This document shows positions 14,282-31,504 of a stretch of 35,596 nucleotides of DNA, in pieces. A program made the position numbers and the translations under genes. The stretch lies in contig CAINFC010000194.1 of NCBI GenBank assembly GCA_903847975.1, positions 1 through 35,596 on the forward strand. The letters run 5' to 3'. The notes under the pieces are model-generated. The model did not search any database, was not told the DNA's origin, and saw nothing but the letters and a program-made list of their open reading frames with translations. Every line of letters starts with the position of its first letter. Positions within the stretch are counted from its first letter, which is position 1. The DNA is from an uncultured Acidobacteriota bacterium (lineage in GTDB: Bacteria > Acidobacteriota > UBA6911 > CAINFC01).

Positions 14282-16321
14282 GTGAGAAGCGGCGTTAAAA
14301 AAGTTCTGGCGGTGTTGCTGATCCTGGGCGGGATCGGTGCGGCGATTCCGGGGCAGGTGTTTTCTCCGCGGGTTTTCCGCGAGGGGCAGCCGGACGCCAC
14401 CGACCTGGCAGGACTGGCGGCGGGCATTTTCCGCCAGGCCGGAGCCGTAACCCCCCGGCAGAAGGCCGAGGCCATCTGGTGCTTTTTCCTGACCGACGGG
14501 CGCTTCGTGCCGCCCGGCATGTGGTATCACATTGCCGGCTGGGCCTACGAGGAGCCGCAGGGGGAGGTTCTCGATCCCCTGAAGCTTCTGCACAGCTATG
14601 GCTTCGGGCTGTGCTACCAGCTGGCGCCCCTGCTGGAGGCGGTTTTTCGGGCAGGCGGATTCGAGGATGCCCGCACCTGGTTTCTGACCGGCCACACCGT
14701 GGCTGAAGTTTTCTACGAGGGAGCCTACCACCATTTCGATGCCGACATGATGGGCTATACCACGACGGGCCGCGGCGATCCGCGGACCGCTCCGGTGGCT
14801 TCGGTTGCGGAGCTGGCCGCCGATGGAAGCCTCTTCCTGTCGCGGCTGCTTTCGCCCCGCGAGGCGGACGCTTCCCGGGTGGCCTTTCCCTGGTACCCCG
14901 CGGACGTTGCCGCGGCGGCCATTCCCGATCTGGCGGCGCTGTTCACTACCCGCGCGGACAACTGGCTCTTTGCCGAGGCGCGCAGCCCCCAGGGCCATTC
15001 CATGGATTTCGTTCTGCGTCCCGGGGAGCGGCTGATCCGCTATTTCCAGCCGGAAAGCAGCGACTGCTTCTACCTCCCCTTTCGCTACGACGGCAGGCAA
15101 TGGCAGGAGTTTCCGCGGGAGGTGGCGGCCTACGGCATCCGCACGGAAGACGGTCCGCGCAGCCAGAAGGATGCGCGGCTTTGGGCCACCGGGAAAATCG
15201 AATACCGGCCGGTGCTCTCCGACCGGCGAGGTCTCAACTTTGCGGTGTTTGAAATGCGCAGCCCCTACGTGCTGATCGATGCGCGGCTGTCCTTCCAGGC
15301 CAGCCTGCCGCAGAAGGGGCAGGCGCTGGAAGCCTCGCTTTCCGTGGACGGCGGCCGCAGCTGGGAGCGGATGGGTGAGCGGCAGGGGCCTTTCCGCGGG
15401 GAATGGCAGGTCCGGCCGGCGGTTTTGTCTGCCGGGCCGCATGGCGGCCGTTCGGCGGTGAGCGGCCGATACCAGTACCTGGTCCGCATTGCCATGAGCG
15501 GCTCGCGGCCCGGGGCGGAAATCGGTCTGCGCGACCTACGCATCGAAAGCCGGCTGCAGCTCAATCCCCGCACTCTGCCGGCCCTTGGACCAGGACCAAA
15601 CCGGCTGCAGTTCGAGCCGGGGGCGGCGGTGGAGCGAAAAACGATTCCGGTGGAAACGGCCACCCTGTGCCATTTTGCGAAAAAAGCGCTCCACATCCAG
15701 TCGCGGGAGGAAGGGGGCCAGATCGTTCTCTATCCGGAGGAGGGAAAAACCGCGGAGATCCTCCTGGAGCTGACCGCGCCGGACTCCCTGCCCCTGGCGG
15801 GTTTTGATGCCGGAGCCCGGTTCCTGGACCTCCGGGAGGGGTGGGCGCCGGATAAATGTACGGCGGAAATCCGCAAGACCAGGATCGGCCAGGGAAACGC
15901 CTCCCGGGAGGCGCCCCGGGCTTCCATCGCCTGGTCCGCCTCCGCGGACGGCGAATACACCCCTTTGTGGGAGTTTCCTCCCCAACCGGCCTGGAAAGAC
16001 GGGCAGCCGGTCCGCCAGCAGCTGCGCTGGCCGGAAGTCGACCGGCAGGTGCGGTCTTTGCCTTCCGGGACCCGAACCGTCTACCTGCGCTACCGGCTGA
16101 AGGGCATGGGGCTGGACAGCCCGCGGCTGGCGGTTCTCTGCGCTCCGCCGCGGAAGCCCTCCCGGCTGGAAATTACCCACCGGTGGGACGCGGAAGGGAA
16201 GAGCTTCTCCCGCACGGAGACGGTCCTCCGGCCCGACCAACCCTATTCCTACCAGGTGGACACCGGGGCTGCCCGACCGGTCGTGAATCGGGCCATCGTG
16301 CTGTATTGCCCGCCGGAATAA
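14282..16321 (+). CDS. Secreted transglutaminase-like protein with C-terminal beta-sandwich region (paralog 1)
   Basis: About 679 residues from GTG 14282, which has a purine-rich GAGGGGGGAA just upstream and starts a signal peptide (VKKVLAVLLILGGIGAAIPG). An earlier TTG at 14243 is less likely. Residues about 35-165 carry a transglutaminase-like (papain-type) core: Cys111 in SYGFGLCYQLAPLL, His138 in GHTVAEVFYEGAYHHFD and Asp153. The rest is beta-rich, with SPYVLIDARL and LGPGPNRLQFE matching the second such protein at 29774. Bacterial members of this superfamily include proteases and amidases as well as true cross-linkers, so the reaction is unknown. It is probably periplasmic or surface-located and diverges from the DUF5107 unit. 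Confidence 0.72.
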   Translation: MRSGVKKVLAVLLILGGIGAAIPGQVFSPRVFREGQPDATDLAGLAAGIFRQAGAVTPRQKAEAIWCFFLTDGRFVPPGMWYHIAGWAYEEPQGEVLDPLKLLHSYGFGLCYQLAPLLEAVFRAGGFEDARTWFLTGHTVAEVFYEGAYHHFDADMMGYTTTGRGDPRTAPVASVAELAADGSLFLSRLLSPREADASRVAFPWYPADVAAAAIPDLAALFTTRADNWLFAEARSPQGHSMDFVLRPGERLIRYFQPESSDCFYLPFRYDGRQWQEFPREVAAYGIRTEDGPRSQKDARLWATGKIEYRPVLSDRRGLNFAVFEMRSPYVLIDARLSFQASLPQKGQALEASLSVDGGRSWERMGERQGPFRGEWQVRPAVLSAGPHGGRSAVSGRYQYLVRIAMSGSRPGAEIGLRDLRIESRLQLNPRTLPALGPGPNRLQFEPGAAVERKTIPVETATLCHFAKKALHIQSREEGGQIVLYPEEGKTAEILLELTAPDSLPLAGFDAGARFLDLREGWAPDKCTAEIRKTRIGQGNASREAPRASIAWSASADGEYTPLWEFPPQPAWKDGQPVRQQLRWPEVDRQVRSLPSGTRTVYLRYRLKGMGLDSPRLAVLCAPPRKPSRLEITHRWDAEGKSFSRTETVLRPDQPYSYQVDTGAARPVVNRAIVLYCPPE

Positions 16322-16360
16322 CAGCGGATACGACTCGAAACCACCTCCCGAACGAAAGCC

Positions 16361-16440
16361 GTTTTGAGTACAGCCTTAAGGCTGCGTGCTGCGAGCGGGA
16401 TTCTGCTTGTGCCCTGCAAGCTAAAGCTTGTACTCTGAAC
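16361..16440. repeat. Palindrome-rich intergenic element, second family
   Basis: The 25-base ends (16361-16385 and 16416-16440) are imperfect inverted repeats sharing GTT..GAGTACA. Inside the left arm is the perfect palindrome AGCCTTAAGGCT (16372-16383), and inside the right arm is CAAGCT-AA-AGCTTG (16417-16430). The whole can fold as a two-armed cruciform closed by GAGTACA/TGTACTC. It lies 39 bases after the transglutaminase-like gene and 62 bases before REPIN-like copy B. It may also work as a terminator between convergent genes. Confidence 0.6.
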
Positions 16441-16502
16441 GAAGAAGACCTATTGCTTCTCCATCATGGGAGATAGCTTCGCAAAAATCGTTTTTCCATC
16501 CG

Positions 16503-16719
16503 GTTCTGCCGTCCCGATGAGACTTGCCCCGTGCTGGAGCCCACCCGGCAATAAATTGCCGGGCCAAAATCTTGTCGGCCCTGACGGGACTATGTCTCGG
16601 AATCACAGTCCTGTGTCGGATTACGCGGGGCCTGATAAGGCAATGGCGGAGTTCAACGGTACGATCTCCGCTATTTCGTCCCGTGTGGCACACACGCAAG
16701 TCCCTTCGGGACGGCAGAG
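16503..16719. repeat. REPIN-like palindrome-ended repeat, copy B
   Basis: Begins GTTCTGCCGTCCCGATGAGA and ends CAAGTCCCTTCGGGACGGCA followed by GAG. It aligns with positions 231-449 of copy A, including the core stretch CGGAATCACAGTCCTGTG and the CCCGGCAA/TTGCCGGG hairpin. Homology also extends about 30 bases left of the first palindrome. It lacks the extra right-hand unit of copy A and sits between convergent genes. Together with the preceding element it accounts for most of the 446-base gap 16322-16767; the remainder holds no gene. Confidence 0.75.
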
Positions 16720-16767
16720 CATTCCAGGGGGGACAATTTACCGTGCCGGACAGTCCGCAGAAGCGCG

Positions 16768-19476
16768 TTATTCGACGACCAGCGGAGCCGCGGCTTCGAT
16801 TCCCGTCAGCACGTCCCGGACCTGCAGCCGGTAGCTTCCCTTGACGGCGTCAGCGGCCAGCGGGATTTCCCAGACCGTTTTCCCCTCCGGGGCGGAAAGG
16901 TTCCGGCGGAGCATGCGCAGCTCTTTGTCGTCCGGCCCGGTGACCCGCACGCAGAACGTGGAGGCCCCGGTCCAGCGCGCTCCGGTCAGGGCCAGGTTCA
17001 CTTTCAGCAGCTCCCCCGCCCTGGCCCGCCCCGGGCCGTGCAAGGAAAGCTCTTTGGCGGCGGCCGGCAGCACGGCCAGCAGGGTCGGCTGGATCTGGTC
17101 CAAAGAGAAGCGGTACTGGCGGGTATTCCCCAGAAATTTTCCGGCCCGGGCATCATAGAGGGCAACCGGGCGGTCGAAAAGAAGCGTCAGGTTCAGCGGG
17201 GCCTCCAGGGCTTCCTGCTTCTGATACTCCGGCGGTCCCAGTTCGTTGATGCGCAGACCGTAGTTGCGATGAATGCCGAGCAGGCTTATATTACCGCTTT
17301 TCCAGGGGTGGACTTCCACCCCGGACACCGGCTTCCCGTCTTCGCCGGCGATGCGGAACTGCCGCCGTACGCCGGCCTGGCGCAGGATTTCAGATACCAG
17401 CTGCCGGAGGCTGTCTCCCTCCGGCGGGCGCTGCCGCCAGCGGTGGTAGTCGGTAATCACCGCGTTCAGGTAAAGGGTCCGGCCACCGCGGCCGTGCTCC
17501 CGCAGGATCACTGCGGGAACGCCGCCGGCGTCCTGGTAAAGGGCCGTGGCGCCGGGCCGCACCCGGATTCCCGGCTCGGCGGCGGCGACCTTCTCCAGCA
17601 GAGCGGGCCAGGAGGAAGCGGCTTTCCCGGGGACCGGTTGCAGGCCGGTCGGCCCCGGGTGGAAGCGGGCATCCAGCCGCTCGATGCCGAACAGATCGTC
17701 GAGCTGCCCCTGGGGGAGCATCCGGGCGTGCTGGTCCATGAGCGCGGTGCGGCAGTCGGCCACCAGCGTCCCGCCCCGCTCTACGAAGCGTCGCAGCGTG
17801 TCGGCTTCCGCCCGGGACAGGGCGATCGACTGGGGCAGGAAGAAAACCCGGGCATCCCGGGTGCCCCCCGCGGGTTCTTCCAGCTGCCGGTAGGAAACGA
17901 AATAGTACTGCTGCAGGTTGTCCTCCAGCAAGTGAAGGACGGACTGCCGCAGGCGCAGAAAATCCGAGTTGGTCCGCTCATAGGAGGAGCGCTTGTCGAT
18001 CCAGCTTTCGCCCAGAGGCCGGTGTTCGAACATCCAGTGGGCGTTGATGGACGGCTGGGAATAGTGCACGGCAATGGGATCGTCGATCCTCTCCATCTGA
18101 ATGAGCTGGCGGCCGATGCCGCCGGTCAATTCCCGGTAGGTCGGCGCCACCAGATTCCCCAGGGGAGTGAGCTGCCCGTCCGGCTGCAGATAGCGGTTTT
18201 GTTCGTCGTAGATAATGACGCCGCGGTCCCCGTGCAGCGCCTGGTACCAGAGCCTCCATATTTCGGTCGGATCGGCGCCAAAGCCGGTGGTCAGGGCGGG
18301 CTTGCGCGGGGCGAAAGAACGCCAGATTTCCCGGTTGTTGCCAATGTTGTAGGGCTCGGCCACGTCGATTGCCTGGGAAAGAAGCCAGTAATCGTAGCCG
18401 CCGAAGGCCGCCGGCATCTGGCAGCCCACCAGGCCGGCAATCGCTTTGGGATCCACGGCGCGGGCGGCATCGCCGGCTTTGCCGGCAGCCGAAGCGAAGG
18501 TGAGATTCATGAACGTGCGATGGTCCGCCCAGGGGGAAAGATTGTCGTCGCCGCGCTTCATCATCTCATCCGTGGAGAGCGGAGTGACTTCCTCCAGCGT
18601 GCGGAACCGGGTGCCCCACTCCCGGTTGATGCCTTCCAGCGAGCCGTATTCCCCGAGCAGCCACTGGCGCATGGCCGTCAGAGTCAGCGGGCAGAAGCAG
18701 AAGTCCCAGGCTTCCACCAGGTTGGCCACTCCGGTCTCATCGGTGGAGTAAAAGAAGGGGCGGAAGCGCATCTGGGCCGAAACCACTTCGCGGATGCGGG
18801 CCATGGCTGTGGATTCCGCCTCCGTGTCGTGGAAGCAGGGCTGGCGGAAAAAAGCCTGCTTGCTGCTGCGGTCCTGGCGGTAGAGGGCCTTGGCTTCCCG
18901 CATGCGCTGCTCTTTGTCCTTCAATGCCGGGGTGTGGTAGGGGGCGTAGAAGTCGTAAGCCATCTGGTCGCAGTAGAAGCGGAAGTCGTTTTTCCACCAG
19001 GCGGAGGCGCCGTCGGGCCGCCGGCTGGACACATTCTGGATCTGCCCGGCGGTCACCCCGAGATCGCGCAATGCCGGCTGCTGCTGCGGCCGATAGGGGT
19101 AGTACAGGATCACCTGGTAGTCGTTCCAGCCTTCGTCCGGGGTCACCACGAACTCGGTGCGGTCGAAGCGCAGGACGGAGGCGCCCGCGGTCAACTCCAC
19201 GTCCAGGAAATTCTGCAGCGCCACCGCCCGGCCGAGCGGGAGAGTGAAGGGGAGCGAATCCCCGCGCAGTTCCACGGGCCGGATTTCCTCGGCGACCAGG
19301 CGCCCGTAGCTGTCGGTCCAGCGGATTTTAAGGGATCCCGGACCGGCCAGGGGGGAGTCCGTTCGAATCGTGCCTTTCAGAGTATCCGTGCGGGTCATCA
19401 GGCCGGGTTCAATCCGGACGCTGCCGGCAAAAAGCGCACCCGTGCACCAGAAAAGCAAAAGCAGTCGCTTGATCAT
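16768..19476 (-). CDS. Secreted GH42-like protein, divergent, possibly inactive
   Basis: 902 residues from ATG 19476, chosen because AGAGGTGG precedes it and a signal peptide starts there (MIKRLLLLFWCTGALFAGS); the open frame extends to 19623, but that part lies in a repeat. The middle resembles GH42 beta-galactosidases: FYSTDETG (candidate acid/base Glu247), then FCFCPLTLTAMRQWLLGEYG and INREWGTRF. Next comes the strand-helix WRLWYQALHGDRGVI, and then a trimerisation-like Rossmann segment (LRRFVERGGTLVADCRTALM). The strand that normally carries the nucleophile Glu reads ALTTGFGADP, without a glutamate. It may therefore act differently or only bind sugar. Beta domains precede and follow the core. 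It is likely the last gene of the minus-strand unit. Confidence 0.68.
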   Translation of the reverse strand: MIKRLLLLFWCTGALFAGSVRIEPGLMTRTDTLKGTIRTDSPLAGPGSLKIRWTDSYGRLVAEEIRPVELRGDSLPFTLPLGRAVALQNFLDVELTAGASVLRFDRTEFVVTPDEGWNDYQVILYYPYRPQQQPALRDLGVTAGQIQNVSSRRPDGASAWWKNDFRFYCDQMAYDFYAPYHTPALKDKEQRMREAKALYRQDRSSKQAFFRQPCFHDTEAESTAMARIREVVSAQMRFRPFFYSTDETGVANLVEAWDFCFCPLTLTAMRQWLLGEYGSLEGINREWGTRFRTLEEVTPLSTDEMMKRGDDNLSPWADHRTFMNLTFASAAGKAGDAARAVDPKAIAGLVGCQMPAAFGGYDYWLLSQAIDVAEPYNIGNNREIWRSFAPRKPALTTGFGADPTEIWRLWYQALHGDRGVIIYDEQNRYLQPDGQLTPLGNLVAPTYRELTGGIGRQLIQMERIDDPIAVHYSQPSINAHWMFEHRPLGESWIDKRSSYERTNSDFLRLRQSVLHLLEDNLQQYYFVSYRQLEEPAGGTRDARVFFLPQSIALSRAEADTLRRFVERGGTLVADCRTALMDQHARMLPQGQLDDLFGIERLDARFHPGPTGLQPVPGKAASSWPALLEKVAAAEPGIRVRPGATALYQDAGGVPAVILREHGRGGRTLYLNAVITDYHRWRQRPPEGDSLRQLVSEILRQAGVRRQFRIAGEDGKPVSGVEVHPWKSGNISLLGIHRNYGLRINELGPPEYQKQEALEAPLNLTLLFDRPVALYDARAGKFLGNTRQYRFSLDQIQPTLLAVLPAAAKELSLHGPGRARAGELLKVNLALTGARWTGASTFCVRVTGPDDKELRMLRRNLSAPEGKTVWEIPLAADAVKGSYRLQVRDVLTGIEAAAPLVVE

Positions 19477-19543
19477 AATCCACCTCTGTATTTGTGTTCC
19501 CTGTTTATCGACCTTATTTCCATAATGGAGATTCCCAACCTTT

Positions 19544-19644
19544 TTCTGCCATCCCGATAGGGACTTGCCGTGTGCTGGAGTCAACCCGGTAATGAAATGC
19601 CGGATTGGGTCAGCGCAATACAAATTCCCATCGGGACGGCAGAG
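19544..19644. repeat. REPIN-like palindrome-ended repeat, copy C (short)
   Basis: About 101 bases: left end TTCTGCCATCCCGATAGGGA, right end CAAATTCCCATCGGGACGGC. It corresponds to the two outer parts of copy A joined directly, with the central region missing, and keeps a weakened CCCGG hairpin. It lies between the Cache-like and GH42-like genes, so if those form an operon the hairpins are transcribed with it and could affect expression of the downstream gene. Confidence 0.7.
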
Positions 19645-19677
19645 CCAGACGAATCATCGAACGTTTACGCCTTCCCC

Positions 19678-20244
19678 TTATTTGACGTTTTCCTGGGCGT
19701 TGAAGCGGGCGCGGCTCACCACTTCCACCAGACCGACAATGTCCCCCAGGCTGTTGTAAACCGGGGTCAGCACCGAAAGGATGTCCCCTTTTTTCTGCAC
19801 CGCAATCCGCTTTCCGGTATCCAGCACCTCCTTCATCTCCGGGAACATGTCGGCATGCAGCTGGCCGAACGTCCAGTACTGGCTCATTTCGTAGCGGTTG
19901 CGTATCAGCACCTGGATTTTCCGGGGATTCTCCCGGAAAGGCATCCAGAGGTTGCAGTCCACCGGGTAGGCCACGAGGCGCGAAAGCCGGATCAGCGTTT
20001 TTTTCGTCTGGATGTACGGTTCGATGTTGACGTCAAAGTTGTCCGACCCGGCCCAGGGATCCTTGGGATCCACGGTGAACATCTTTTTCAGGGCCCGCTC
20101 GGTCATGATGCGCTCGCAGACATCGCCGTCGACCATGACGGTGGCCACCCGGGCGATCTCCTGCAGGTCCTTTTCCAGCTCCGGAGGGCCGGCCTGGGCG
20201 GCGGCGCTCCCCAGGCACAGCAACAGCGCCAGGAATATTTTCAT
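19678..20244 (-). CDS. Small secreted Cache-like sensor-domain protein
   Basis: 188 residues with a signal peptide (MKIFLALLLCLGSAAAQA) and no membrane anchor or signalling domain afterwards. Residues about 20-188 read like a single Cache domain: an N-terminal helix (LEKDLQEIARVATVMVDGD), then WMPFRENPRKIQVLIRNRYE and the closing strands GDILSVLTPVYNSLGDIVGL. Cache domains normally sit outside the membrane on chemoreceptors and kinases and bind small ligands, so a free secreted one may be a binding protein or partner subunit. ATG 20244 overlaps the stop of the DUF4091 gene (ATGA) with GGGAGGAAAA upstream, showing coupling. A distinct, unrecognised periplasmic family is the alternative. Confidence 0.6.
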   Translation of the reverse strand: MKIFLALLLCLGSAAAQAGPPELEKDLQEIARVATVMVDGDVCERIMTERALKKMFTVDPKDPWAGSDNFDVNIEPYIQTKKTLIRLSRLVAYPVDCNLWMPFRENPRKIQVLIRNRYEMSQYWTFGQLHADMFPEMKEVLDTGKRIAVQKKGDILSVLTPVYNSLGDIVGLVEVVSRARFNAQENVK

Positions 20245-22088
20245 CCTTGTTTTCCTCCCTCGATCTGCCCATATAGAAAACGGCGTATTTCCAGCCAGTA
20301 GCCCGGGGGCCAGTTCCGGTACTTCTGCATGCTGGGGTCGACCCCTTCGCCAATGCTGTGGTTGGTCCACTCGAAAGGCGGCATGTCGGCGAATGGAGGC
20401 CGCGGCGTCCACCATTCCGAAGCGGGCTTGCCGTTGATCCGGCGGGTCACTTCGGTGCGTATCCAATCGGGTGGACGGCCCCGGCCCAGCTGCTCCAGCA
20501 GATCCAGGTCCTGAATGAAGTTGCGCTGGATTTTCAGCCGGATGCTGGGGATGGGCTCCGACAGCCCGAAGCGCTCCCCGGGATATACCAGGCAGATGGC
20601 CTCGCCGTCGGACTGAAACCAGGGGTCGCGGTCGGGGGTGACGGTCTGCCAGTGAACGTAGCCGTCGAGTCCCCAGATCCAGGCCAGCAGCGGGTTTTCC
20701 AGGATGGCCGCGGAGGTCTCCTTCATGGAGGGAGGGCCGGAGTAGGACCAGATGATATCGCCGCGCTGCCGGCCCGCCCGCACCGATTCCGGCAGGAAGC
20801 TGAGGATCGACTTGCCGCAGATCCAGAAATTGACCACCCCGGCCAGCGTCCGGAACTGCTCTTCCATGCGCCAGCTGGCGTCATTGCGAAAGACGAACTG
20901 CACCGGGGTTTCCGCGGGCAGGGCCTTTTTCAGGAGGCGGCCCATCTCCAGAAAAAAGGCGTCCTCCTTGGGAAAGCGGGCTTCATCCCCGTCCCAGGGG
21001 AACCCCTTGTACCTTTTCTTGAAATTGAAGAACATTTCGAAGCGGGTGCGGGTCCAGCCCTTTTCCCGGAAGTGCTTTTCCATCTCCCCGACCACCCGCG
21101 TGAATTCCGCCTCGTAGCCGGGCTCGCCCCACCCGAGAAAGGAAGCGGGCCACTCCGGGTTGATGGTCAGGTACACAAAGGGAATGGGAGCCGGTCCGCG
21201 GCGCGATCCGGCAAAAGCGCTGCCGTCGAGCAGCGGGGCGTAATGCCGGTCGAAGCGGTCCCAGAGGGCGACGCGCCTGGTTTTTCCGGTTCCGGCGAGC
21301 TCCGGTGCAAACTCCGGCCCCACCTTGCCGCCGTGCCCGTATCCCAGCTGGTGGTAGGTTCCGCGATGCTCGTAGAAGATGCGGTGATAGGCGTGGATCA
21401 GGCGGTACAGGGCATCGCTGCCGAAGAAGTCGGTCCCGGCTCCCTCCCGGATTTTGGGGTACAGGTCGGCGATCCAGCTCGTGCCGTAGGAATTGTGGTC
21501 TACCAGCAGGACGTCCGTGCCCGGCACGGAAGCCGGCAGGACCGTGACCTGGATGACCGCTTCCGACCGATGGCCGCCCGACTCCAGCGTCGCCGTGCCG
21601 CGATACTCTCCGGGCCGGGCGCTCAGCGGCAGGTACAGGTCCACCCAGAAGGCCTGGGCGGTCTGCCCGGGAACGCGGTTGTCCGGATCGGGAACGGCGC
21701 CTGCGTACGGGTTGGAAACGGGCTGCAGGGCATCCGGAATGAGTTCGCCGCTCTTTTCCAGGCGGTGAAACCAGGCCTTGAAGAGATCCGCCTGAAGGTT
21801 GTTGCCGGCGCCGGCAAAATCGAGCCGCAGGGAGTAGGGCCCGGGACCCGACGGGGAAGCCGACAATTGAAAGGAGACGTATCCTCCGCGGGCTGCCTGG
21901 AGGCGCAGGGCCGGGCCGGTTGCCGGGGCCGCCTCCGGCCCTGCGCCGGAGCGGTCCGGGGCCACCACCCCTCCAAACGGGTCGGGCCGCTGGTATTCCG
22001 AAAAGCAGCGCAGCTCCTGGCCCCGGGGGGCCAGGCCCAGGACCAGCAGAAAAAAAAGGATCTTCCGGGGGTCGGACATGGGTTTCAT
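20241..22088 (-). CDS. DUF4091 glycoside-hydrolase-like secreted protein
   Basis: 615 residues with a hydrophobic N-terminus (ILFFLLVLGLAPRG). A beta domain (about 25-185, with VDLYLPLSARPGEYRGTATL) is followed by a TIM-barrel-like region (FVYLTINPEWP, FEMFFNFKKRY, VQFVFRNDASW). The C-terminal DUF4091 part has its usual marks: IIWSYSGP, LAWIWGLDGYVHWQT, AICLVYPGERFG, then SIRLKIQRNFIQDLDLLEQL. DUF4091 proteins are thought to be glycoside hydrolases, often near sugar-degradation genes, but substrates are mostly unknown. GGAAGGAAAG precedes the start. It is the first gene of a minus-strand unit with the Cache-like and GH42-like genes and diverges from the ROK regulator, which probably controls it. 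Confidence 0.83.
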   Translation of the reverse strand: MKPMSDPRKILFFLLVLGLAPRGQELRCFSEYQRPDPFGGVVAPDRSGAGPEAAPATGPALRLQAARGGYVSFQLSASPSGPGPYSLRLDFAGAGNNLQADLFKAWFHRLEKSGELIPDALQPVSNPYAGAVPDPDNRVPGQTAQAFWVDLYLPLSARPGEYRGTATLESGGHRSEAVIQVTVLPASVPGTDVLLVDHNSYGTSWIADLYPKIREGAGTDFFGSDALYRLIHAYHRIFYEHRGTYHQLGYGHGGKVGPEFAPELAGTGKTRRVALWDRFDRHYAPLLDGSAFAGSRRGPAPIPFVYLTINPEWPASFLGWGEPGYEAEFTRVVGEMEKHFREKGWTRTRFEMFFNFKKRYKGFPWDGDEARFPKEDAFFLEMGRLLKKALPAETPVQFVFRNDASWRMEEQFRTLAGVVNFWICGKSILSFLPESVRAGRQRGDIIWSYSGPPSMKETSAAILENPLLAWIWGLDGYVHWQTVTPDRDPWFQSDGEAICLVYPGERFGLSEPIPSIRLKIQRNFIQDLDLLEQLGRGRPPDWIRTEVTRRINGKPASEWWTPRPPFADMPPFEWTNHSIGEGVDPSMQKYRNWPPGYWLEIRRFLYGQIEGGKQG

Positions 22089-22159
22089 GACTTTCCTTCC
22101 TGACGAAATGACATCGGTGCCGCGGCGGTGCGATCCAGCTCAATGTTTAGCTCGAATTA

Positions 22160-22254: not shown

Positions 22255-23487
22255 ATGAAGAAAATTGACCTGAAGAAATTCCGTGCGGCCGATCACAGCG
22301 TTCTGCGGGACATTAACGAAGCGATCGTGATCAACCTGATCCGGGAGCGGCAGCCCGTTTCCCGGGTGGACATCGCCGGGGCATCCGGGCTGGAGGAGGG
22401 CACCATTTCCCGGATCGTCCAGCGCTTCCTGAAGCAGGGCCTGGTCTTTGAATCCGGGGTGGGGCCCTCCACGCCGGCGGGAGGCCGCAAGCCCCGTTTT
22501 CTGCACATCAACCCCACCAAGCGCTGCGCGGTCGGCGTGGAGATCGGCCCGCAGGAAACCCTGCTGGCCCTGAGCGACCTGAACGGCCACCTGCACCAGC
22601 TGCGACGCATCCCGCACTCCAGGCAGCACATGCCTTTTCTGGCGGAGGTCGCCGCCGCGATTCAGGACCTGATCCGCTTCGCCAAGCACTACCAGGAGAT
22701 CGGGGGGGTGGGCGTCAGCCTCCCGGGCCTCCTGGACGTCAAAGAGGGAGTCGTCCTGGAAGGAGAGAATCTGGGCTGGGGCGGAAACATTCCGGTAGGG
22801 GCCATCCTGCGCTCCGGAATCAAGAAGGAAATCCCTCTTTACTATGAGAACGGAGCCCGCCTCTGCGCCCTGGGTGAGATCTGGTTTGGTACCGCCCACT
22901 TCCCCGGCTTCCGGGACATGGTCTTTGTGGATGTCAGCGAGGGCGTGGGAACCGGCATCATCATTAACGGCCAGCTGTATCACGGACACCAGCACGGGGC
23001 CGGAGAGTTCGGGCATGTCTGTATCGATCCCGCCGGGCCGCGGTGCTCCTGCGGTTCCGCCGGTTGCCTGGAGGCCCTGGCTTCCGACTATGCCACCCTG
23101 GAGCGCTACCGGCAAAAGCGGCAGAGCGCACCGGATTCGAATGGTTTGCGCACCGACGTCACGGATGTCGCCACGATCGTCGACCTGGCCCGGAACGGCG
23201 ACCGGACCGCCCTGGCAACCATCCAGGAAACCGGACACTACCTCGGCCTCGGCATCGCGCCCATTCTTTACGGATTGAACCCGGAGGCGGTCATCATCGG
23301 CGGGAAGATTGCCGAAGCCTGGCCGCTGATCTCCGGAAAAGTATTGGATTCCCTGGCCACCAGGGTTTCACCCGCTTACCGGCAGGCAACCAAGATCCTG
23401 CCGTCCACGCTTCATATCCGGCCATCGCTGCTGGGCTCCATCGCCCTGGTGCTGGCCCAGGATTTTTCCACCCCCGACATTCTATAA
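22255..23487 (+). CDS. ROK-family transcriptional regulator (NagC/XylR type)
   Basis: 410 residues. The N-terminal winged helix-turn-helix (about 15-70: VLRDINEAIVINLIRERQPV, then SRVDIAGASGLEEGTISRIV) is followed by a ROK sugar-kinase-like fold (VGVEIGPQETLLAL, GVGVSLPGLLDV, FVDVSEGVGTGIIINGQLY). The ROK zinc site is present: His254 in GEFGHVCID and Cys264, 266 and 271 in CSCGSAGCLE. The kinase catalytic aspartate (E-N-D-A-N in kinases) is replaced by Gly200 in YYENGARL, so this should be a sugar-sensing repressor, not a kinase. The ribosome-binding site is weak. It stands first in a run with the M20 peptidase 9 bases on, and its promoter overlaps a palindrome. Confidence 0.92.
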   Translation: MKKIDLKKFRAADHSVLRDINEAIVINLIRERQPVSRVDIAGASGLEEGTISRIVQRFLKQGLVFESGVGPSTPAGGRKPRFLHINPTKRCAVGVEIGPQETLLALSDLNGHLHQLRRIPHSRQHMPFLAEVAAAIQDLIRFAKHYQEIGGVGVSLPGLLDVKEGVVLEGENLGWGGNIPVGAILRSGIKKEIPLYYENGARLCALGEIWFGTAHFPGFRDMVFVDVSEGVGTGIIINGQLYHGHQHGAGEFGHVCIDPAGPRCSCGSAGCLEALASDYATLERYRQKRQSAPDSNGLRTDVTDVATIVDLARNGDRTALATIQETGHYLGLGIAPILYGLNPEAVIIGGKIAEAWPLISGKVLDSLATRVSPAYRQATKILPSTLHIRPSLLGSIALVLAQDFSTPDIL

Positions 23488-23496
23488 CAACAGATC

Positions 23497-24792: not shown

Positions 24793-24805
24793 AGAGGAAG
24801 AATCG

Positions 24806-24865
24806 ATGGCAGGAATCAAACGGCGGCCGGCAAACAGGCTCTCAGAGCTGCTTTCCGAGGATTGA
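24806..24865 (+). CDS. Possible 19-residue leader peptide upstream of the permease
   Basis: The frame reads MAGIKRRPANRLSELLSED and stops 10 bases before the permease ATG. GAGGAAG lies 5 bases before its ATG, a better ribosome-binding site than the permease has. It may be a small translated leader that couples peptidase and permease translation, or chance. I see no attenuator hairpin or codon run to support amino-acid sensing. Confidence 0.3.
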   Translation: MAGIKRRPANRLSELLSED

Positions 24866-24875
24866 GTTCCGCGCC

Positions 24876-26240
24876 ATGGGAACGACAGCCAACAGGCAGG
24901 CCGCCGGAAGCGATCCCGGATTCAAGCGGGTTCTTTCGTTGTGGGACCTGGTTCTCTTCGGCCTGGCCTTCGTGGGGCCCACGGCTCCCTACTCGATGTT
25001 CGGCATCGCCACGGTCAAATCCCAGGGGCACCTGCCGCTGGTCTACGCGCTGGCCATGGCGGTGATGAGCCTTACGGCGGTCAGCTACGGCCGGATGGCC
25101 GTGGCTTTCCCCGAGGCGGGAAGCACCTACACCTATGCCTCCCGGGGCCTGAATCCCTGGATCGGATTTCTCACCGGGTGGGCCATGATCCTGGACTACG
25201 TGCTCATCCCGCTGCTCAGCGTGATCTTCGTGGGGCTGACGGCGGCCAAGCTGGTGCCCCAGGTTCCCTACGGGATCTGGGCGGTGCTGACCGGGCTGGG
25301 GGTGACCGCCATCAACCTGCGCGGGATTCGTGTCACCGCGCGCGCCAACCTGCTGCTCAACGCCGTCATGATCGGGTCGCTGTGCTGGTTCGTGCTTGTG
25401 GCCGTCCGTGCCCTGCTGGCCGGCCTGGGAAGCGGCACGCTCCTTTCCCTTCGCCCTTTCTATGATCCGCCGCATTTTGCCTGGAGCGCGATCGTGGCTT
25501 CCACCTCCCTGGCGGCCCTTTCCTATCTGGGCTTCGACGGCATCAGCACCCTGGCCGAGGAGGCCCGGAATCCCCGGCGGGACATCCCCCGCGCCACGCT
25601 GCTGGTCTGCTTTTCGGCCGGGGGGCTTTTTGTGCTGCAGAGTTACCTGGCCCAGCTGGTCTGGCCTGACTTTACCCGGTTCGAGCCGGTGGAGACCGCA
25701 TTCCTGGACATTGGCCGGCGGATCGGCGGTGAGGCGCTCTTCTATTGCATCTCGTTCGTACTGCTGGTCGGCGGACTGGCCAGTGCCATCACCGGGCAGG
25801 CTGCCGCCTCGAGGCTCCTGGTGGGTATGGGCCGGGACGATCTTCTGCCCCGACGATTGTTCGCCTACATCCACCCGCGCCTGGGAACCCCGGTTTACAG
25901 CGTGCTGCTGATGGGCGCCATCCACCTGTTGGGATCCCTCTGGCTGCGCTACACCGAGGCCGCCGAGCTGGTCAACTTCGGAGCCCTGCTGGGTTTTATG
26001 GCGGTCAATGCCGCCGTTATCCGGCATTTCCACGGGCGGCTGCGGCAGGGCCGGCCGGTGCTCAACCTGGCGCTTCCCGGCCTGGCCCTGGCGTTCTGTT
26101 TCTCCCTGTGGGTCAACCTCTCCGGCTTCGCACTCGCGGTGGGAGCCATCTGGCTCGGGGCGGGCATCTTCTATCTTGCCCTGCTCACCCGCGGGTTCCG
26201 GCGCTCACCGGTGGCGATGAACCTCGACCAGACCGGATAA
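24876..26240 (+). CDS. APC-superfamily amino-acid permease
   Basis: 454 residues, about 12 membrane helices, inner membrane. The first helix has the superfamily signature (LSLWDLVLFGLAFVGPTAPY), followed by GRMAVAFPEAGSTYTYASRG and the conserved helix-6/7 loop SYLGFDGISTLAEEARNP. It imports or exchanges amino acids or polyamines, driven by protons or exchange; specificity cannot be read. ATG 24876 gives a normal N-terminus; the frame is open upstream from 24672, but that part overlaps the peptidase and has no transporter character. It has no good ribosome-binding site and may depend on the small frame just upstream. The esterase gene follows after 6 bases. Confidence 0.9.
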   Translation: MGTTANRQAAGSDPGFKRVLSLWDLVLFGLAFVGPTAPYSMFGIATVKSQGHLPLVYALAMAVMSLTAVSYGRMAVAFPEAGSTYTYASRGLNPWIGFLTGWAMILDYVLIPLLSVIFVGLTAAKLVPQVPYGIWAVLTGLGVTAINLRGIRVTARANLLLNAVMIGSLCWFVLVAVRALLAGLGSGTLLSLRPFYDPPHFAWSAIVASTSLAALSYLGFDGISTLAEEARNPRRDIPRATLLVCFSAGGLFVLQSYLAQLVWPDFTRFEPVETAFLDIGRRIGGEALFYCISFVLLVGGLASAITGQAAASRLLVGMGRDDLLPRRLFAYIHPRLGTPVYSVLLMGAIHLLGSLWLRYTEAAELVNFGALLGFMAVNAAVIRHFHGRLRQGRPVLNLALPGLALAFCFSLWVNLSGFALAVGAIWLGAGIFYLALLTRGFRRSPVAMNLDQTG

Positions 26241-26246
26241 ACGATC

Positions 26247-28250
26247 ATGCGGTGGTTTCTCGCTATTTCCTTTCTGTTGAGCGGCCTGTGCTGCGCAAAG
26301 GCTGCGGAGCAGCGCCCCTTTTACGACCGGACCCATGAATCCGCGGTGCTCGGCGGGCCGCGCACCTACCGCCTGTTTCTGCCGGCCAGCTACGACGCCG
26401 GCCTGAAGCGCTACCCGGTGGTATACTACTTTCACGGGCACAGCGACCGCTACACGCTGGAGCACTACGATCAGGGGAAAGACACCGTGCCGCGGATCGC
26501 GGCCTTCGTTGCGGCCCACGACCTGATTGTAGTCAGTGTCGACGGCTATGTGGCCGCCGATTACGGGGGCTTCTACGGCGGCTCGCCGTGGGACATACAG
26601 AAATCACCCGGCACGTACGACTTCGGGGCCTATTTCCTGGAACTGGTGGAGCACATCGACGGCGCCTGCCGTACCCTGACCGACCGGCGCCACCGGGCCA
26701 CCTCCGGCCTGAGCATGGGCGGCTTCCTGAGCCTGTATCTCAGCGCCCGGTTTGCAGACCGCATCGGCAGCGCCTCGGCCTTCAATCCCGGCCCGGAATT
26801 CCTGACGGGGGATGTCGGCCGGCGCCTTCTCTGGCGCCTGAAGGACATGGCAGTCAACCATGAAAACAGCATGATCCGGCTGGTGCGAGCCAGCGGCGAC
26901 TACATCAGCCAGTACCATGAAGAAGCCCGGGATGCCTATGCCCGGAATCGGCGTGTGGCATTCGAATTCCGCCAGGATGAATACCACCGCCATGCGGCCA
27001 CCTCGATCGAGGAAACCCTCGGTTTCCACCTCCGCGCTTTTTCGCAGCCGGCGCTGGACAATACGCCGGAAAGCTGGAGCTGCGCGTTGCCTTTCCGCTC
27101 CTTTTCCATCTGGGACTGGCGGGCCGATGTGGCCGGTGACGGAGCCGGATATGTCTCGCTGGAGGAGGTGTCGCAGGGCGGACTGCGGGTGCGTACCCGG
27201 CAGTGGGCCCCGGACGGCCCGCCTCAGGCGGCCTGGCAGATCGCGCTCGGCACGGCGCCCCGCTACCAGCCGGGGGCCGCCTACCGTATTTTGGACTACA
27301 GCCTGGCTACCGGAAGGCTGTCGGTGACGGAGAAAGTCGCCGACCGTCAGGGCCGGCTGTCGATCGGCGTGGACGGCAGCGGGCATCAGATCGGGATCGC
27401 CGGGCCGGGGACCGGGGCCGCGCCTCCGGTCCTCCTGCCGCTGACCGGCCGGGACCGCCTGCGGTGCGAGCCGGGCAAAACTTTGCTTCTGCCGGTCCGC
27501 ATCTTCAACCCGCGCGGCGCTCCCATGGAAGAAGTGCGCGTGGAACTGGCCAGCGAATATCCGACGGTGGAAATCCAGAAGCGATCCACGGTGGTGAAGG
27601 GACTGGCCCCGGGCACAACCGCTGATCTGTCCGCGGAGTTCCCGGTACGCTTTACCGCGGGCAGCGGGAGTGCGTCTCCGGCCCGGCTGCTGCTGAAAAT
27701 GACCTATGACGGCTGGTACAGCGCTTCCCGGGAAATCGACCTGCTGGTTCTGCCGGAGGATACGCCCAAACCTTTGGCCGTCGAGATTCTGGACGGGCGC
27801 CGGGTCACCCTGCCCGTTTTCCGGCAGAAAGGCAACCAGGGAGGCGGTTCCCTGATCGAGCGGACCGTGACCGAAGGGCAGGGCAACGGCAACGGGATCC
27901 TGGAGCCGGGGGAAGAAGCCACCGTCTGGGTGAAAATGGCGCAGGGCCTGGATCCCTTCGACAAGCAGAGCTGGCACCGGGCGCGGGTCTTTTCCGATTC
28001 GCCCTGGCTGGAGGAAGTCCGCCTGCTGGAAGAGGAAAAACAGCGGGAGTGGACCGGGGCGCGCAGCCGGGCGAGTGTGGTGCGCATGTCTGTCCGGGCT
28101 CCTTCGGGGGGCGTCGTGCCGGCGGTTCTGGAGAGCGAAAGCTGGAGCTTCGCGTTCACCCCGGAGGTGCGCTACGGCCGGGAGCCGCTCTACCAGGCGT
28201 TTCAGAGGCATGCCGATCACCTGCATGCCTTTTCGTTCCGCCTCCCCTGA
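26247..28250 (+). CDS. Secreted esterase (feruloyl-esterase/EsteraseD type) with C-terminal beta domains
   Basis: 667 residues with a signal peptide (MRWFLAISFLLSGLCCAKAA). Residues about 30-280 form an alpha/beta-hydrolase of the PF00756 type: VVYYFHGHSDRYT (oxyanion region), SGLSMGGFLSLYLS with nucleophile Ser156, and a late histidine in EYHRHAAT. This group contains feruloyl and acetyl xylan esterases and mycolyl transferases. The rest is beta-rich: a region around LPVRIFNPRGAPMEEVRVEL resembling NPCBM/CARDB-type domains, and GNGNGILEPGEEATVWVKM, a motif found in several bacterial extracellular beta-sandwich repeats. It follows the permease by 6 bases and ends the ROK-led operon. The substrate is unknown. 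Confidence 0.82.
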   Translation: MRWFLAISFLLSGLCCAKAAEQRPFYDRTHESAVLGGPRTYRLFLPASYDAGLKRYPVVYYFHGHSDRYTLEHYDQGKDTVPRIAAFVAAHDLIVVSVDGYVAADYGGFYGGSPWDIQKSPGTYDFGAYFLELVEHIDGACRTLTDRRHRATSGLSMGGFLSLYLSARFADRIGSASAFNPGPEFLTGDVGRRLLWRLKDMAVNHENSMIRLVRASGDYISQYHEEARDAYARNRRVAFEFRQDEYHRHAATSIEETLGFHLRAFSQPALDNTPESWSCALPFRSFSIWDWRADVAGDGAGYVSLEEVSQGGLRVRTRQWAPDGPPQAAWQIALGTAPRYQPGAAYRILDYSLATGRLSVTEKVADRQGRLSIGVDGSGHQIGIAGPGTGAAPPVLLPLTGRDRLRCEPGKTLLLPVRIFNPRGAPMEEVRVELASEYPTVEIQKRSTVVKGLAPGTTADLSAEFPVRFTAGSGSASPARLLLKMTYDGWYSASREIDLLVLPEDTPKPLAVEILDGRRVTLPVFRQKGNQGGGSLIERTVTEGQGNGNGILEPGEEATVWVKMAQGLDPFDKQSWHRARVFSDSPWLEEVRLLEEEKQREWTGARSRASVVRMSVRAPSGGVVPAVLESESWSFAFTPEVRYGREPLYQAFQRHADHLHAFSFRLP

Positions 28251-28308
28251 TCGCCGGTCGCCGCTCCGGGATACAATGAGCATGTGGGAGTTAAACCGAA
28301 CTGTTTCC

Positions 28309-28326
28309 GGGCCTCGGGCCCTTTTT
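28309..28326 (+). terminator. Probable intrinsic terminator after the esterase gene
   Basis: GGGCC-TCG-GGCCC is a five-pair, all G-C stem with a three-base loop, followed directly by TTTTT and CTTC. It lies between the esterase stop and the oxidoreductase start, so it could end the ROK-led operon or reduce read-through. The stem is short. Confidence 0.45.
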
Positions 28327-28342
28327 CTTCGAGAGGAATTTT

Positions 28343-29770
28343 ATGATGCAACGTCGTAATTTTCTGCAAAAGTCCTTCCAGGGCGCCGGCGCGGCGCTGG
28401 CCCTTTCGGGGTCCCGGCTGCTGGGGGCCAACGACGCCATTCGGGTGGCGGTCGTCGGGCTGAACGGCAAGGGTGCCCAGCATATCGAACTTTTCCGCAA
28501 GACCCCCGGGGTGCAGGTGGCCGCGCTGTGCGACCCGGACGCTGCACTGCTGCGGCGCGAATCGCAGAAATTCAAGGACCGCAAGGAAACGGTGGCCGTG
28601 TACGGCGATCTGCGCCGCCTCTTCGAAAGCAGGGAGGTCGACGCGGTGATCATTGCCACCCCGAACCACTGGCACTGCCTGGCGGCGATCTGGGCCTGCC
28701 AGGCGGGAAAGGATGTCTATGTCGAAAAGCCCGTCTCCTATTGCGTCCGCGAGGGGCGCCGGCTGGTGGAGGCGGCCCGCAAGTACCGGCGCATCGTGCA
28801 GGCCGGCACCCAGCGGCGGTCCGACCCCGGCGTCATGGCCATCGACGAGTACCTGCAGAAGGGGAGCCTGGGCAAGGTCCTGTACATGTACGGCGTCTGC
28901 TTCAACGAGCGGAGGAGCATCGGCAAGGTGGACGGGCCCCAGCCCGTGCCTCCCGAGGTGGACTACGATCTGTGGTGCGGCCCGGCTCCCAAAGGGCCGC
29001 TGATGCGCAGGAGCCTGCACTACGACTGGCACTGGGTCTGGCCCACCGGCAACGGAGAAATCGGCAACAACGGCATTCATTCCATCGACCTGTGCCGCTG
29101 GCTGATGCATCAGAAAGGGCTGCCCCCGCGGGTCATCAGCCTGGGCGGGCGGTTCGGGTACCAGGACGACGGAGAAACGCCCAACTCCCAGATCGCCCTG
29201 CTGGATTACAAGCCGGTGCCCCTGCTCTACGAGGTGCGCGCGCTGTACCGCCGGGCCGGTGAGAAAGTCATGGATCACTATAAGGGAGTGCGGGTCGGGG
29301 AAGCGATCCTCTGCGAGGGGGGCACCATCGCCGGGGATTTCGCCTACGACCGGGAAGGGAAGAAGATCCGGCAATTCGGACGCGACGAGGGGGCCGGACA
29401 CCACTTGAACTTCCTCAAGGCGCTGCGCAGCCGCAATCCGGCCGATCTGAACGCCGAAATCGAGCAGGGGCACCTTTCCGCCGCCCTATGCCACATGGCC
29501 AATATTTCCTTCCGCCTGGGCAAAACCGGCGACCTCGAAGAGGGGAAAGCGGCGATGTCTTCGCTGCCGGCGGCCGCCGAGGCGGTGCAGTCCTTCCGGG
29601 AGCACCTGCGGCTGAACGACATCCGGCTGGAGGCCACCCCGGCCACGCTGGGCCCCTGGCTGACCATGGACTCGGAGCGCGAGCAGTTCACCGGTCCGCG
29701 CGCCGAGGAGGCCAACCGGCTGCTGACCCGCGAATACCGGGCGCCCTACATCGTCCCGGACCGGGTTTGA
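28343..29770 (+). CDS. Tat-exported Gfo/Idh/MocA-family oxidoreductase
   Basis: 475 residues. The N-terminus is a twin-arginine signal (MMQRRNFLQKSFQGAGAALA), so the protein is folded with cofactor and exported. A Rossmann domain follows (IRVAVVGLNGKG, dinucleotide loop 39-44), with VDAVIIATPNHWH and the catalytic-lysine motif EKPV (Lys129). The C-terminal substrate domain has NGEIGNNGIHSIDLCRWLM, including the active-site histidine. These enzymes reduce or oxidise sugars and cyclitols using bound NAD(P). The Tat-exported subgroup is common in Acidobacteriota and Planctomycetota, and some such proteins cleave glycosides by a redox mechanism. GAGAGGAA precedes the ATG. The second transglutaminase-like gene follows after 3 bases. 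Confidence 0.92.
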   Translation: MMQRRNFLQKSFQGAGAALALSGSRLLGANDAIRVAVVGLNGKGAQHIELFRKTPGVQVAALCDPDAALLRRESQKFKDRKETVAVYGDLRRLFESREVDAVIIATPNHWHCLAAIWACQAGKDVYVEKPVSYCVREGRRLVEAARKYRRIVQAGTQRRSDPGVMAIDEYLQKGSLGKVLYMYGVCFNERRSIGKVDGPQPVPPEVDYDLWCGPAPKGPLMRRSLHYDWHWVWPTGNGEIGNNGIHSIDLCRWLMHQKGLPPRVISLGGRFGYQDDGETPNSQIALLDYKPVPLLYEVRALYRRAGEKVMDHYKGVRVGEAILCEGGTIAGDFAYDREGKKIRQFGRDEGAGHHLNFLKALRSRNPADLNAEIEQGHLSAALCHMANISFRLGKTGDLEEGKAAMSSLPAAAEAVQSFREHLRLNDIRLEATPATLGPWLTMDSEREQFTGPRAEEANRLLTREYRAPYIVPDRV

Positions 29771-29773
29771 CCC

Positions 29774-31504
29774 ATGAATCCGACCGCCGCCCTGCTTTTC
29801 CTGAGCCTGTGGATCGGGGGGATTTCGGCCGGGAACGCCGCGGAACCGCGCGTGGTGACCGGCCCGCTGGTGGTCAGCGACCGCTGGCCGGAGTGCACCA
29901 CGCTTGCGACCTGGACCCGGGATGTCCTGCGCCTCGAGAAAGTCGAGCAGTCGTCGGAGACCGCCCAGGCCAGGGCATTTTTCGAGTGGCTCCGCCTGTT
30001 TTCCCGGATGGCCGTCGGGGGCATGATCCAGGCCTTCGAAGGGGATTGCGGCCGGGAGCAGTATGTGCTGGACGCGCACAAGAATCTTTTCGTCTACGGC
30101 TGGGGCTATTGCGACACGCACAGCCGGATCGCCGAGGCGGCCTGGAGCGAGTACCGGCAGGACCGCCAGGCGGCCCAGCGGGTGATCGTGCAGCATGAGG
30201 ACGGGGGCTACCACACCATGTACCGGCTCCGCCTGGACGGGCGCTACGCGGCATTCGACGCCCGCTATGGCTACTTCCTGATCGAGGAGGATTCTCCCGG
30301 GGCGCGGATCCTGGACTGGGTGGAGGTCGGGGCGGATGAGAACATCCTGAAAAATAAAGGCTACCGGAACCGCTCCCGCCCCTTTTTCGAATTTTTCGGG
30401 AGGGAATGGGACCGGGCGCTGCTGGTCCAGCCGCGCTTTTTCGACTCGGAAGAGGCCTGGGTCCGGGCCGGGAAGCCGGTGGAATGCCCGTTTGCCGATC
30501 CCAAATACGAGATGGGCACCGTGTTCCACGATATGTCCTTCCGCCTGCCGAGAGGGTCCCGGCTGGAGCGGCACTGGGACAACCGGATGAAAAAGTTTTA
30601 TGTCCCCGCCGGCCGGCAGGCCCAAAGGGAGGAGAAGTTTCTTCCTTCCGGCCGTTTCTACCGGGTGACGGAAAGCATGTTCGACGGGAACTGGCCGAAA
30701 AACGATCCCAACTACGCCCGATGCGCGCCTTACCTTTCCGCGGTTCCGGAGGAGGAAGGGTACAGTCCGGAGGTCCGCGGAGGCCGCACCCTGGGGCAGG
30801 CCTGGGGCCGGTGGGATTATGTTCCCGACCTTGGCCACCCTCAGTTCCTGGCCGATGCCCCGGTGGAAACCGACTGGGTAACGGCCTCCTCTGCGCCCTT
30901 TCTGCGCCCGCGCCCGGCGGACGGGGGCGGCCAGGCGACCTTCGACTTTTACTGCCCCTATGTCCTGGTCGATGCCGTGCTGGAGGGGGAGTGGGCGGGG
31001 GGGGCCGGGGATCGGCCCCTGGTGGAGATCCGCACCCTGCAGCCCAAGACCGGTCACGAAAAGGAGCCGGATCGCTGGACGCCGTGGGAAGCGCTCTGCC
31101 GGGAGCCCGGAGCGTTCCGGGAGGAACTGGGCCGGCCGCGCTTCAACGGGCGGCAGGTGAGCCTCCACGGGGTGTACCGGTTCCAGCTGCGGTTTTCGCT
31201 GCAACCCAACGCCAAACGCTCCGCCCCGGCGGGATTGAAGCGGCTGCAACTGAGCGCCTGGTTCGAAAACGGGATCATGGCCATCCCCCGGATTTTCCCC
31301 GGAGAAAACCGGGTATCCTTCAAAGTGGCGGATGCCGGCGCGGTACGGGGGCCGATCCGGGTGACCTACCGTTACCAGACCGCTGCGGGAGAGAAGGAAC
31401 ATCTCCAGGTGATCCGTCCCTCGGATTTCCAAGGCGCGCAGGCCGGCTACCGGCTGGCGGCGCCCGGCCTGCAGCGCTGCAACAGCCTGATCGTGGAATA
31501 CTGA
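29774..31504 (+). CDS. Secreted transglutaminase-like protein with C-terminal beta-sandwich region (paralog 2)
   Basis: 576 residues with a signal peptide (about 1-23). The transglutaminase-like core has Cys113 in VYGWGYCDTHSRIAEAAW, His147 in GGYHTMYRLRLDGRYAAFD and Asp162, the same order and spacing class as the protein at 14282 (C111, H138, D153). The C-terminal part also matches it: CPYVLVDAVLEGEW against SPYVLIDARLSFQA, and GLKRLQLSAWF ... FPGENRVSFK against GLRDLRIESRL ... LGPGPNRLQFE. The two are therefore full-length distant paralogs. Function is unknown; protease, amidase or cross-linking activity are all possible. It starts 3 bases after the Tat oxidoreductase with no clear ribosome-binding site, so the two are probably co-translated. 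Confidence 0.7.
   Translation: MNPTAALLFLSLWIGGISAGNAAEPRVVTGPLVVSDRWPECTTLATWTRDVLRLEKVEQSSETAQARAFFEWLRLFSRMAVGGMIQAFEGDCGREQYVLDAHKNLFVYGWGYCDTHSRIAEAAWSEYRQDRQAAQRVIVQHEDGGYHTMYRLRLDGRYAAFDARYGYFLIEEDSPGARILDWVEVGADENILKNKGYRNRSRPFFEFFGREWDRALLVQPRFFDSEEAWVRAGKPVECPFADPKYEMGTVFHDMSFRLPRGSRLERHWDNRMKKFYVPAGRQAQREEKFLPSGRFYRVTESMFDGNWPKNDPNYARCAPYLSAVPEEEGYSPEVRGGRTLGQAWGRWDYVPDLGHPQFLADAPVETDWVTASSAPFLRPRPADGGGQATFDFYCPYVLVDAVLEGEWAGGAGDRPLVEIRTLQPKTGHEKEPDRWTPWEALCREPGAFREELGRPRFNGRQVSLHGVYRFQLRFSLQPNAKRSAPAGLKRLQLSAWFENGIMAIPRIFPGENRVSFKVADAGAVRGPIRVTYRYQTAAGEKEHLQVIRPSDFQGAQAGYRLAAPGLQRCNSLIVEY

Follow-up and report, generated by a model that had tools for sequence, protein, structure and literature searches.

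The contig CAINFC010000194.1 (assembly GCA_903847975.1) of an uncultured Acidobacteriota bacterium, analysed over its full 35,596 nucleotides (hereafter the window), raises the question of what two putatively secreted, transglutaminase-like proteins, P0001 and P0002, do in the same locus. An earlier interpretation of this DNA (the sequence-only reading) had described them as distant paralogs in glycan-type gene clusters, and proposed that they could act on the peptide or amide moiety of a glycoconjugate. We find that they represent two subfamilies that lack annotation, in a catabolic locus that is conserved and has not been described before; this is new, whereas the transglutaminase fold on which they are built is already known.

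Two homologous proteins with an invariant Cys-His-Asp triad

The two genes and the codons of their predicted catalytic residues are as follows.

14282..16321, + strand: P0001, predicted secreted transglutaminase-like protein type 1; core ~26-230, beta-sandwich region, extra C-terminal beta domain ~500-679
14612..14614, + strand: predicted catalytic Cys111 of P0001; invariant in 25/25, starts helix 111-124 (DSSP of the model)
14693..14695, + strand: predicted catalytic His138 of P0001; invariant in 25/25, starts strand 138-145 (DSSP)
14738..14740, + strand: predicted catalytic Asp153 of P0001; invariant in 25/25, ends strand 148-153 (DSSP)
29774..31504, + strand: P0002, predicted secreted transglutaminase-like protein type 2, from profile comparison, AlphaFold model and triad conservation
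30110..30112, + strand: predicted catalytic Cys113 of P0002; invariant in 13/13 with a complete core
30212..30214, + strand: predicted catalytic His147 of P0002; invariant in 13/13
30257..30259, + strand: predicted catalytic Asp162 of P0002; invariant in 13/13

Both reading frames have genuine coding periodicity (GC content at third codon positions, 0.80 for P0001 and 0.83 for P0002) and begin with the hydrophobic, signal-peptide-like N-terminus that had been noted before; both proteins are probably secreted. They are 25% identical, and a direct BLASTP comparison of the two alone yields two weak local matches above chance (E 2e-6 and 9e-6). Profile-profile alignment covers residues 4-497 of P0001 and 3-568 of P0002 (probability 98.7%, E 1.6e-16), and the segments aligned in both the pairwise and the multiple alignment include SPYVLIDA/CPYVLVDA and PGxNR. 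Judged by these alignments, P0001 and P0002 are full-length homologues that form two subfamilies, and the similarity along the whole length that the sequence-only reading had described holds, with a C-terminal domain of ~175 residues as an extra part of P0001 that P0002 lacks. We rejected the idea that P0001 duplicated its beta domain internally (probability 0.7%).

The triads C111/H138/D153 of P0001 and C113/H147/D162 of P0002, which had been singled out as a shared core, are in register in the pairwise and multiple alignments. No exception to the triad occurs among the sequences whose core is complete, 25 of P0001 type and 13 of P0002 type (38/38 together), so that the conservation on which the earlier proposal had been staked is complete. 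Identity to P0001 is ~45-57% within type 1 and ~25% between the types. Outside the triad, another His (H239 in P0001, H252 in P0002) is invariant or nearly so, as are positions in the beta region occupied by Pro, Trp, Tyr and Asn, among them W361, Y397 and N440.

Placement in the transglutaminase-like superfamily

Searches of Pfam, NCBIfam and PDB sequences with P0001 and P0002, and of PDB sequences with the family profile, gave no assignment. The family profile retrieves acidobacterial proteins with the same triad, and those scanned (3/3) pass the cut-off of Transglut_core (PF01841). Four such proteins, the three scanned ones passing PF01841, served as targets in hhalign comparisons, which gave probabilities of 97.3% and 98.2% with the triad in register. 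One P0001-type homologue matches PF01841 itself with E 9e-4 and 20.0 bits against a cut-off of 23; P0001 and P0002 have no match at this curated score, which is a rule of the library and not a biological requirement.

The AlphaFold models (predicted template-modelling score, pTM, 0.82 and 0.79) both have the order helix(Cys)-strand(His)-strand(Asp), in which Cys starts the helix and Asp ends the second strand (DSSP). Foldseek searches with the whole models return mostly beta-sandwiches with template-modelling (TM) scores <0.2, and transglutaminases follow at ranks 42 (3ly6) and 50 (1f13), also with TM <0.2. Such searches are uninformative for the core, and we therefore base the fold call on profiles and the order of secondary-structure elements; superposition plays no part in it. 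By these predictions P0001 and P0002 belong to the transglutaminase-like superfamily, with no named family in the libraries searched, and are new subfamilies on a known fold rather than a new fold; the transglutaminase fold anticipated by the sequence-only reading is thus recovered for the core. With PF01841 they share the Cys-His-Asp order, a His-Asp spacing of 15, the helix-strand-strand context and a triad-aligned profile match, but they are large and predicted to be secreted, and they have a beta region peculiar to the family, followed in type 1 by the extra C-terminal domain. Papain family C1 was considered as well: the third residue is an invariant Asp, not Asn, and Pfam contains no papain-family match.

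Distribution, phylogeny and co-occurrence

Scanning genome contigs with the P0001-type alignment, we found 27 P0001-type loci in Acidobacteriota, Glassbacteria and one Gemmatimonadales metagenome-assembled genome. The acidobacterial carriers belong to Bryobacterales, Acidobacteriaceae and Solibacteraceae, and include the cultured Terriglobus albidus and Acidobacteriaceae strain KBS 96. Only 6 of 396 sampled genomes of the window's phylum have a P0001 orthologue, and the gene is therefore rare and patchy in the phylum. Literature searches of partial coverage found no description of the P0001/P0002 family.

Types 1 and 2 form separate clades (tree support 99/99 and 100/100). The earlier description as distant paralogs can be extended accordingly: in this tree the two types are two ancient clades, and local tandem duplication as the origin of the pair was rejected. 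The sequences from Glassbacteria, Gemmatimonadales and genomes G020 and G021 group together in both clades, which, in our reading of the tree, points to joint movement or joint inheritance of the two genes. A third, looser group of relatives carries HEAT repeats or fibronectin-like domains. One HEAT-repeat transglutaminase-like relative (L034:9798-12248) lies in an apparent exopolysaccharide/exosortase cluster, with neighbours that by eye resemble asparagine synthase, glycosyltransferase and exosortase.

A P0002 orthologue occurs in 13 of 21 named P0001-bearing genomes, a number that takes in the copy of KBS 96, which is broken by stops, and the partial matches of G396 and G412. Both genes are also present in G020, G021, G022 and the window's own genome; G025 has P0001 without P0002, as has G288, whose N-terminal sequence is the same as that of the named T. 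albidus protein and which was counted once with it. Together, P0002 is found in 17/26 P0001-bearing genomes versus 0/390 sampled genomes without P0001 (Fisher p ~5e-24), and in the phylum sample alone in 4/6 versus 0/390 (p ~1.5e-8), with p-values that ignore phylogeny. The 21 named genomes had been picked for P0001, and only the 396-genome sample speaks to the occurrence of P0002 without P0001.

In KBS 96 the P0001-type and P0002-type genes lie >3 Mb apart on one scaffold, and linkage is therefore not the cause of the co-occurrence. The window is the only case seen with both genes close (13 kb between them), among loci most of which were viewed over ~20 kb or less. Since carriers of one gene very often carry the other, the paralogs, usually unlinked yet co-occurring, probably act in one shared, undescribed breakdown pathway. 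In-frame stops divide the P0002 orthologue of KBS 96 (L123) into two reading frames; the P0001 orthologue of this strain is intact. A short match in G011 (L037:955-1137, - strand), 49% identical to the last 61 residues of P0002 and possibly a remnant, is found near an amidohydrolase-like gene, as in the window.

Gene neighbourhoods

The genes around P0001 and P0002 in the window are the following.

9898..10914, - strand: URO-D family protein (PF01208, E 1e-50); a relative lies by a P0001-type gene (L071) and another by a P0002-type gene (L122)
10911..14189, - strand: DUF5107 and TPR protein (PF17128, E 1e-35); recurs by P0001-type genes in L075, L079, L082, L084, L085
16768..19464, - strand: distant GH42-like glycosidase with trimerisation domain (PF08532, E 2e-9; PF02449, E 2e-4); 12 loci including the window
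20241..22088, - strand: GH123/NgaDssm-like, putative beta-N-acetylgalactosaminidase-type protein (PDB 8k2f, E 8e-7; 8k2j, E 2e-5); 7 loci including the window
22255..23487, + strand: ROK-family regulator (PF00480, E 7e-52); recurs in L073, L080
23497..24792, + strand: M20 peptidase (PF01546, E 1e-25); 5 loci including the window
24876..26240, + strand: APC amino-acid permease (PF00324, E 8e-35), start probably the ATG at 24876
26247..28250, + strand: putative secreted esterase (PF00756, E 1e-12); relative directly 3' of the P0001-type gene in L070
28343..29770, + strand: Gfo/Idh/MocA oxidoreductase with Tat-like leader (PF01408, E 5e-21), 3 bp upstream of P0002; relatives 3' of P0002-type genes in L123, L124
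31563..32543, + strand: N-terminal half of a heparinase-II/III-like protein; matches residues 31-321 of L122:7089-9023 at 37% identity

Three long + strand open reading frames (10914-13997, 17038-19560 and 20358-22103) are shadows of the minus-strand DUF5107-TPR, GH42-like and GH123-like genes, which makes the surroundings richer in glycan-related genes than a view of the + strand alone would suggest.

Neighbour proteins were clustered, and their families were taken from matches in Pfam and the PDB; the counts that follow take in the window wherever it has the gene. Recurrent near P0001-type genes are GH42-like proteins (12 loci), a ~200-residue protein (8), GH123/NgaDssm-like proteins (7), DUF5107-TPR (6), M20 and APC permease (5 each), M28 and Gfo/Idh (4 each), and ROK, esterase and GH20 (3 each). 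Of the 27 P0001-type loci, 13 have one or more of the three glycosidase clusters (GH42-like, GH123-like, GH20) and 9 have M20 or M28, with many contigs being short. Reading frames overlap or nearly touch in L070, L076, L078, L080 and L084, with short gaps in L079. In KBS 96 the order is GH123-like, ~200-residue protein, GH42-like, P0001-type and esterase, with overlaps or gaps of ~20 bp or less, and in L079 and L080 APC is followed by M20 and then by the P0001-type gene. P0001-type genes thus sit in a recurrent acidobacterial cluster that looks suited to degrading a polymer of sugars and amino acids, and the glycan-type clusters of the earlier description are conserved in other genomes. In the window ROK, M20, APC, esterase and Gfo/Idh run on into P0002, so that the window joins both modules. 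The family of the ~200-residue protein (L070:5610-6221, L079:1318-1941) was not recognised; in the 8 loci its gene lies beside the GH123-like gene or, in L077, immediately 5' of the P0001-type gene, and it was not called in the window.

The GH123-like window protein, which matches the PDB entries 8k2f and 8k2j, keeps the D-E pair and the LVYPGE...SIRLK motif; its closest known counterparts are GH123 and the deep-sea beta-N-acetylgalactosaminidases (NgaDssm group). The DE motif is described as catalytic and conserved in beta-N-acetylgalactosaminidases (PMC11087588). In our family the D-E pair is kept in 7/7 members, within a W-D-G-D-E segment, and together with the second motif it points, remotely, to GalNAc-type sugars. 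The relation to the NgaDssm group is distant (best E 8e-7, and no Pfam match at the usual threshold), and the activity of the window protein is putative.

P0002-type genes adjoin heparinase-II/III-like genes in the window, L122, L127 and L128; in L123 and L124 a GH42-like gene lies upstream and Gfo/Idh downstream. The 644-residue protein of L122 (7089-9023) matches PF07940 and PF16332, the heparinase-like partner in L127 has no Pfam match of its own, and the window gene lacks the C-terminal half, the next gene beginning 90 bp on. Assignment of the window Gfo/Idh protein to GH109 was dropped, as dehydrogenases head its PDB matches and GH109 (2ixa) comes further down.

Proposed function and alternatives

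We consider it somewhat probable that P0001 and P0002 are secreted and hydrolyse amides by means of the Cys-His-Asp triad, cleaving the peptide or amide moiety of a glycoconjugate that contains amino sugars. The sequence-only reading had proposed such cleavage; the repeated coupling to M20/M28 peptidases, an amino-acid permease and hexosaminidase-type enzymes adds to its case, and the activity itself stays putative. In this proposal, Cys would attack the amide carbonyl, with His as acid/base and Asp orienting His, and water would resolve the acyl-enzyme, giving net hydrolysis without cross-linking. Amide or peptide bonds of an N-acetylhexosamine-containing glycoconjugate would be cut outside the cytoplasm, the glycan probably being held by the C-terminal beta-sandwiches. 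The sugars would be trimmed by the GH123-like, GH20 and GH42-like enzymes, the M20/M28 peptidases would finish the peptides, and the APC permease would import the amino acids. What the sequences show is homology, triad invariance, the superfamily, conserved neighbourhoods and co-occurrence in genomes; secretion, a hydrolytic outcome in place of transfer, the choice of bond and substrate, and the way in which the paralogs share the work are parts of the model that we infer. More speculatively, and in our judgement doubtfully, the system may constitute an undescribed glycopeptide-degrading pathway of acidobacteria that also occurs in a few bacteria outside the phylum. Its two partnered transglutaminase-fold hydrolases, of different specificity, would attack two different amide bonds of a glycoconjugate, and the unlinked loci would be gained and kept together.

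Several observations weigh against assigning an amide hydrolase function in this way. Neither protein reaches a Pfam cut-off, and P0002-type sequences alone score a probability of 4% (E 0.01) against the transglutaminase profile, so that the superfamily link of P0002 runs through the joint profile. None of the partners is present in 11/27 P0001-type loci; some of these contigs are short, while others, L086 and L091 among them, are long. The P0002-type neighbourhoods are variable, and several genomes (L121, L125) have neighbours that look unrelated. For the GH42-like and GH123-like neighbours, the assigned substrates are themselves remote guesses from homology, and the co-occurrence statistics take no account of shared ancestry.

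The bond hydrolysed could be the beta-aspartyl-glucosaminyl amide that links N-glycans to Asn, as in eukaryotic peptide:N-glycanase (PNGase; Png1/NGLY1), which we consider improbable. Superfamily and triad order are the same, a transglutaminase core is likewise followed by a beta-sandwich domain, and the glycosidases, peptidases and amino-acid transporter nearby would suit the utilisation of glycoproteins. The P0002 model also matches, weakly, the C-terminal domain of mouse PNGase in Foldseek (2g9g; probability 1.00, target TM 0.46, root-mean-square deviation 5.2, rank 29), but beta-sandwich matches are common and unspecific. Eukaryotic PNGases carry paired CxxC zinc motifs in the core, whereas CxxC occurs in neither P0001 nor P0002; no PDB PNGase sequence is matched by the single proteins or the family profile, and our proteins are predicted to be secreted, from a bacterial catabolic cluster. 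Acidobacteria do make PNGases: PNGase H+ of Terriglobus roseus and other acidobacteria is an amide hydrolase acting on glycopeptides (PMC4231336, PMC7348039), albeit of the PNGase-A type, having been found as a PNGase A homologue (PMC4231336). Identity of P0001/P0002 with PNGase H+ was rejected, since the absence of a PNGase-A-type Pfam match indicates a different family.

Fold and triad cannot separate transfer from hydrolysis, and true transglutaminases or ligases might cross-link, or attach amines to, surface polymers while the glycosidases remodel the cell's own envelope or exopolysaccharide; the asparagine-synthase-like and glycosyltransferase-like genes seen by eye beside the HEAT-repeat relative of L034 would fit. 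We think this unlikely, because the partners are catabolic in the window and in most annotated P0001-type loci (peptidases, amino-acid permease, ROK, esterase), and the GQCW of animal transglutaminases is absent, with FGLCYQ in P0001 and WGYCDT in P0002 instead. Quite unlikely, in our view, is an amidase, not a peptidase, acting upstream of the heparinase-like lyase; it would free amino acids that an acidic polysaccharide from bacteria or algae carries in amide linkage on its uronic acids or amino sugars. The heparinase-II/III-like genes by P0002-type genes at four loci and the amino-acid permease speak for it; against it, there is no direct sign of amidated uronic acid, the window's heparinase-like gene is truncated and the L127 partner matches no Pfam family. 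Glycan-binding proteins that merely inherited the fold would account for the large beta-sandwich regions and for the nearly invariant H239, W361, Y397 and N440, but absolute invariance of all three triad residues in 38 proteins, at the divergence given above, is not expected of a dead enzyme and makes a purely binding role very improbable.

To our knowledge, the use of glycoproteins or other nitrogen-bearing polymers by soil-type Acidobacteriota is little charted. The locus offers two unannotated enzyme families with apparently intact active sites and conserved partner genes, whose co-occurrence makes a single pathway testable, and the P0001-type gene is at hand in the cultured T. albidus and KBS 96. 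If the proposed hydrolase function is true, a secreted thiol amidase acting on glycoconjugates could serve as an analytical enzyme.

Other genes in the window

Towards the start of the window, a sulfatase domain fused to TPR repeats (4563-6698) is encoded downstream of an OMP_b-brl_4 outer-membrane receptor-like protein (802-4467). At the cluster end, a beta-eliminating lyase (33742-35157; PF01212) of the tryptophanase or tyrosine phenol-lyase type belongs to amino-acid catabolism.

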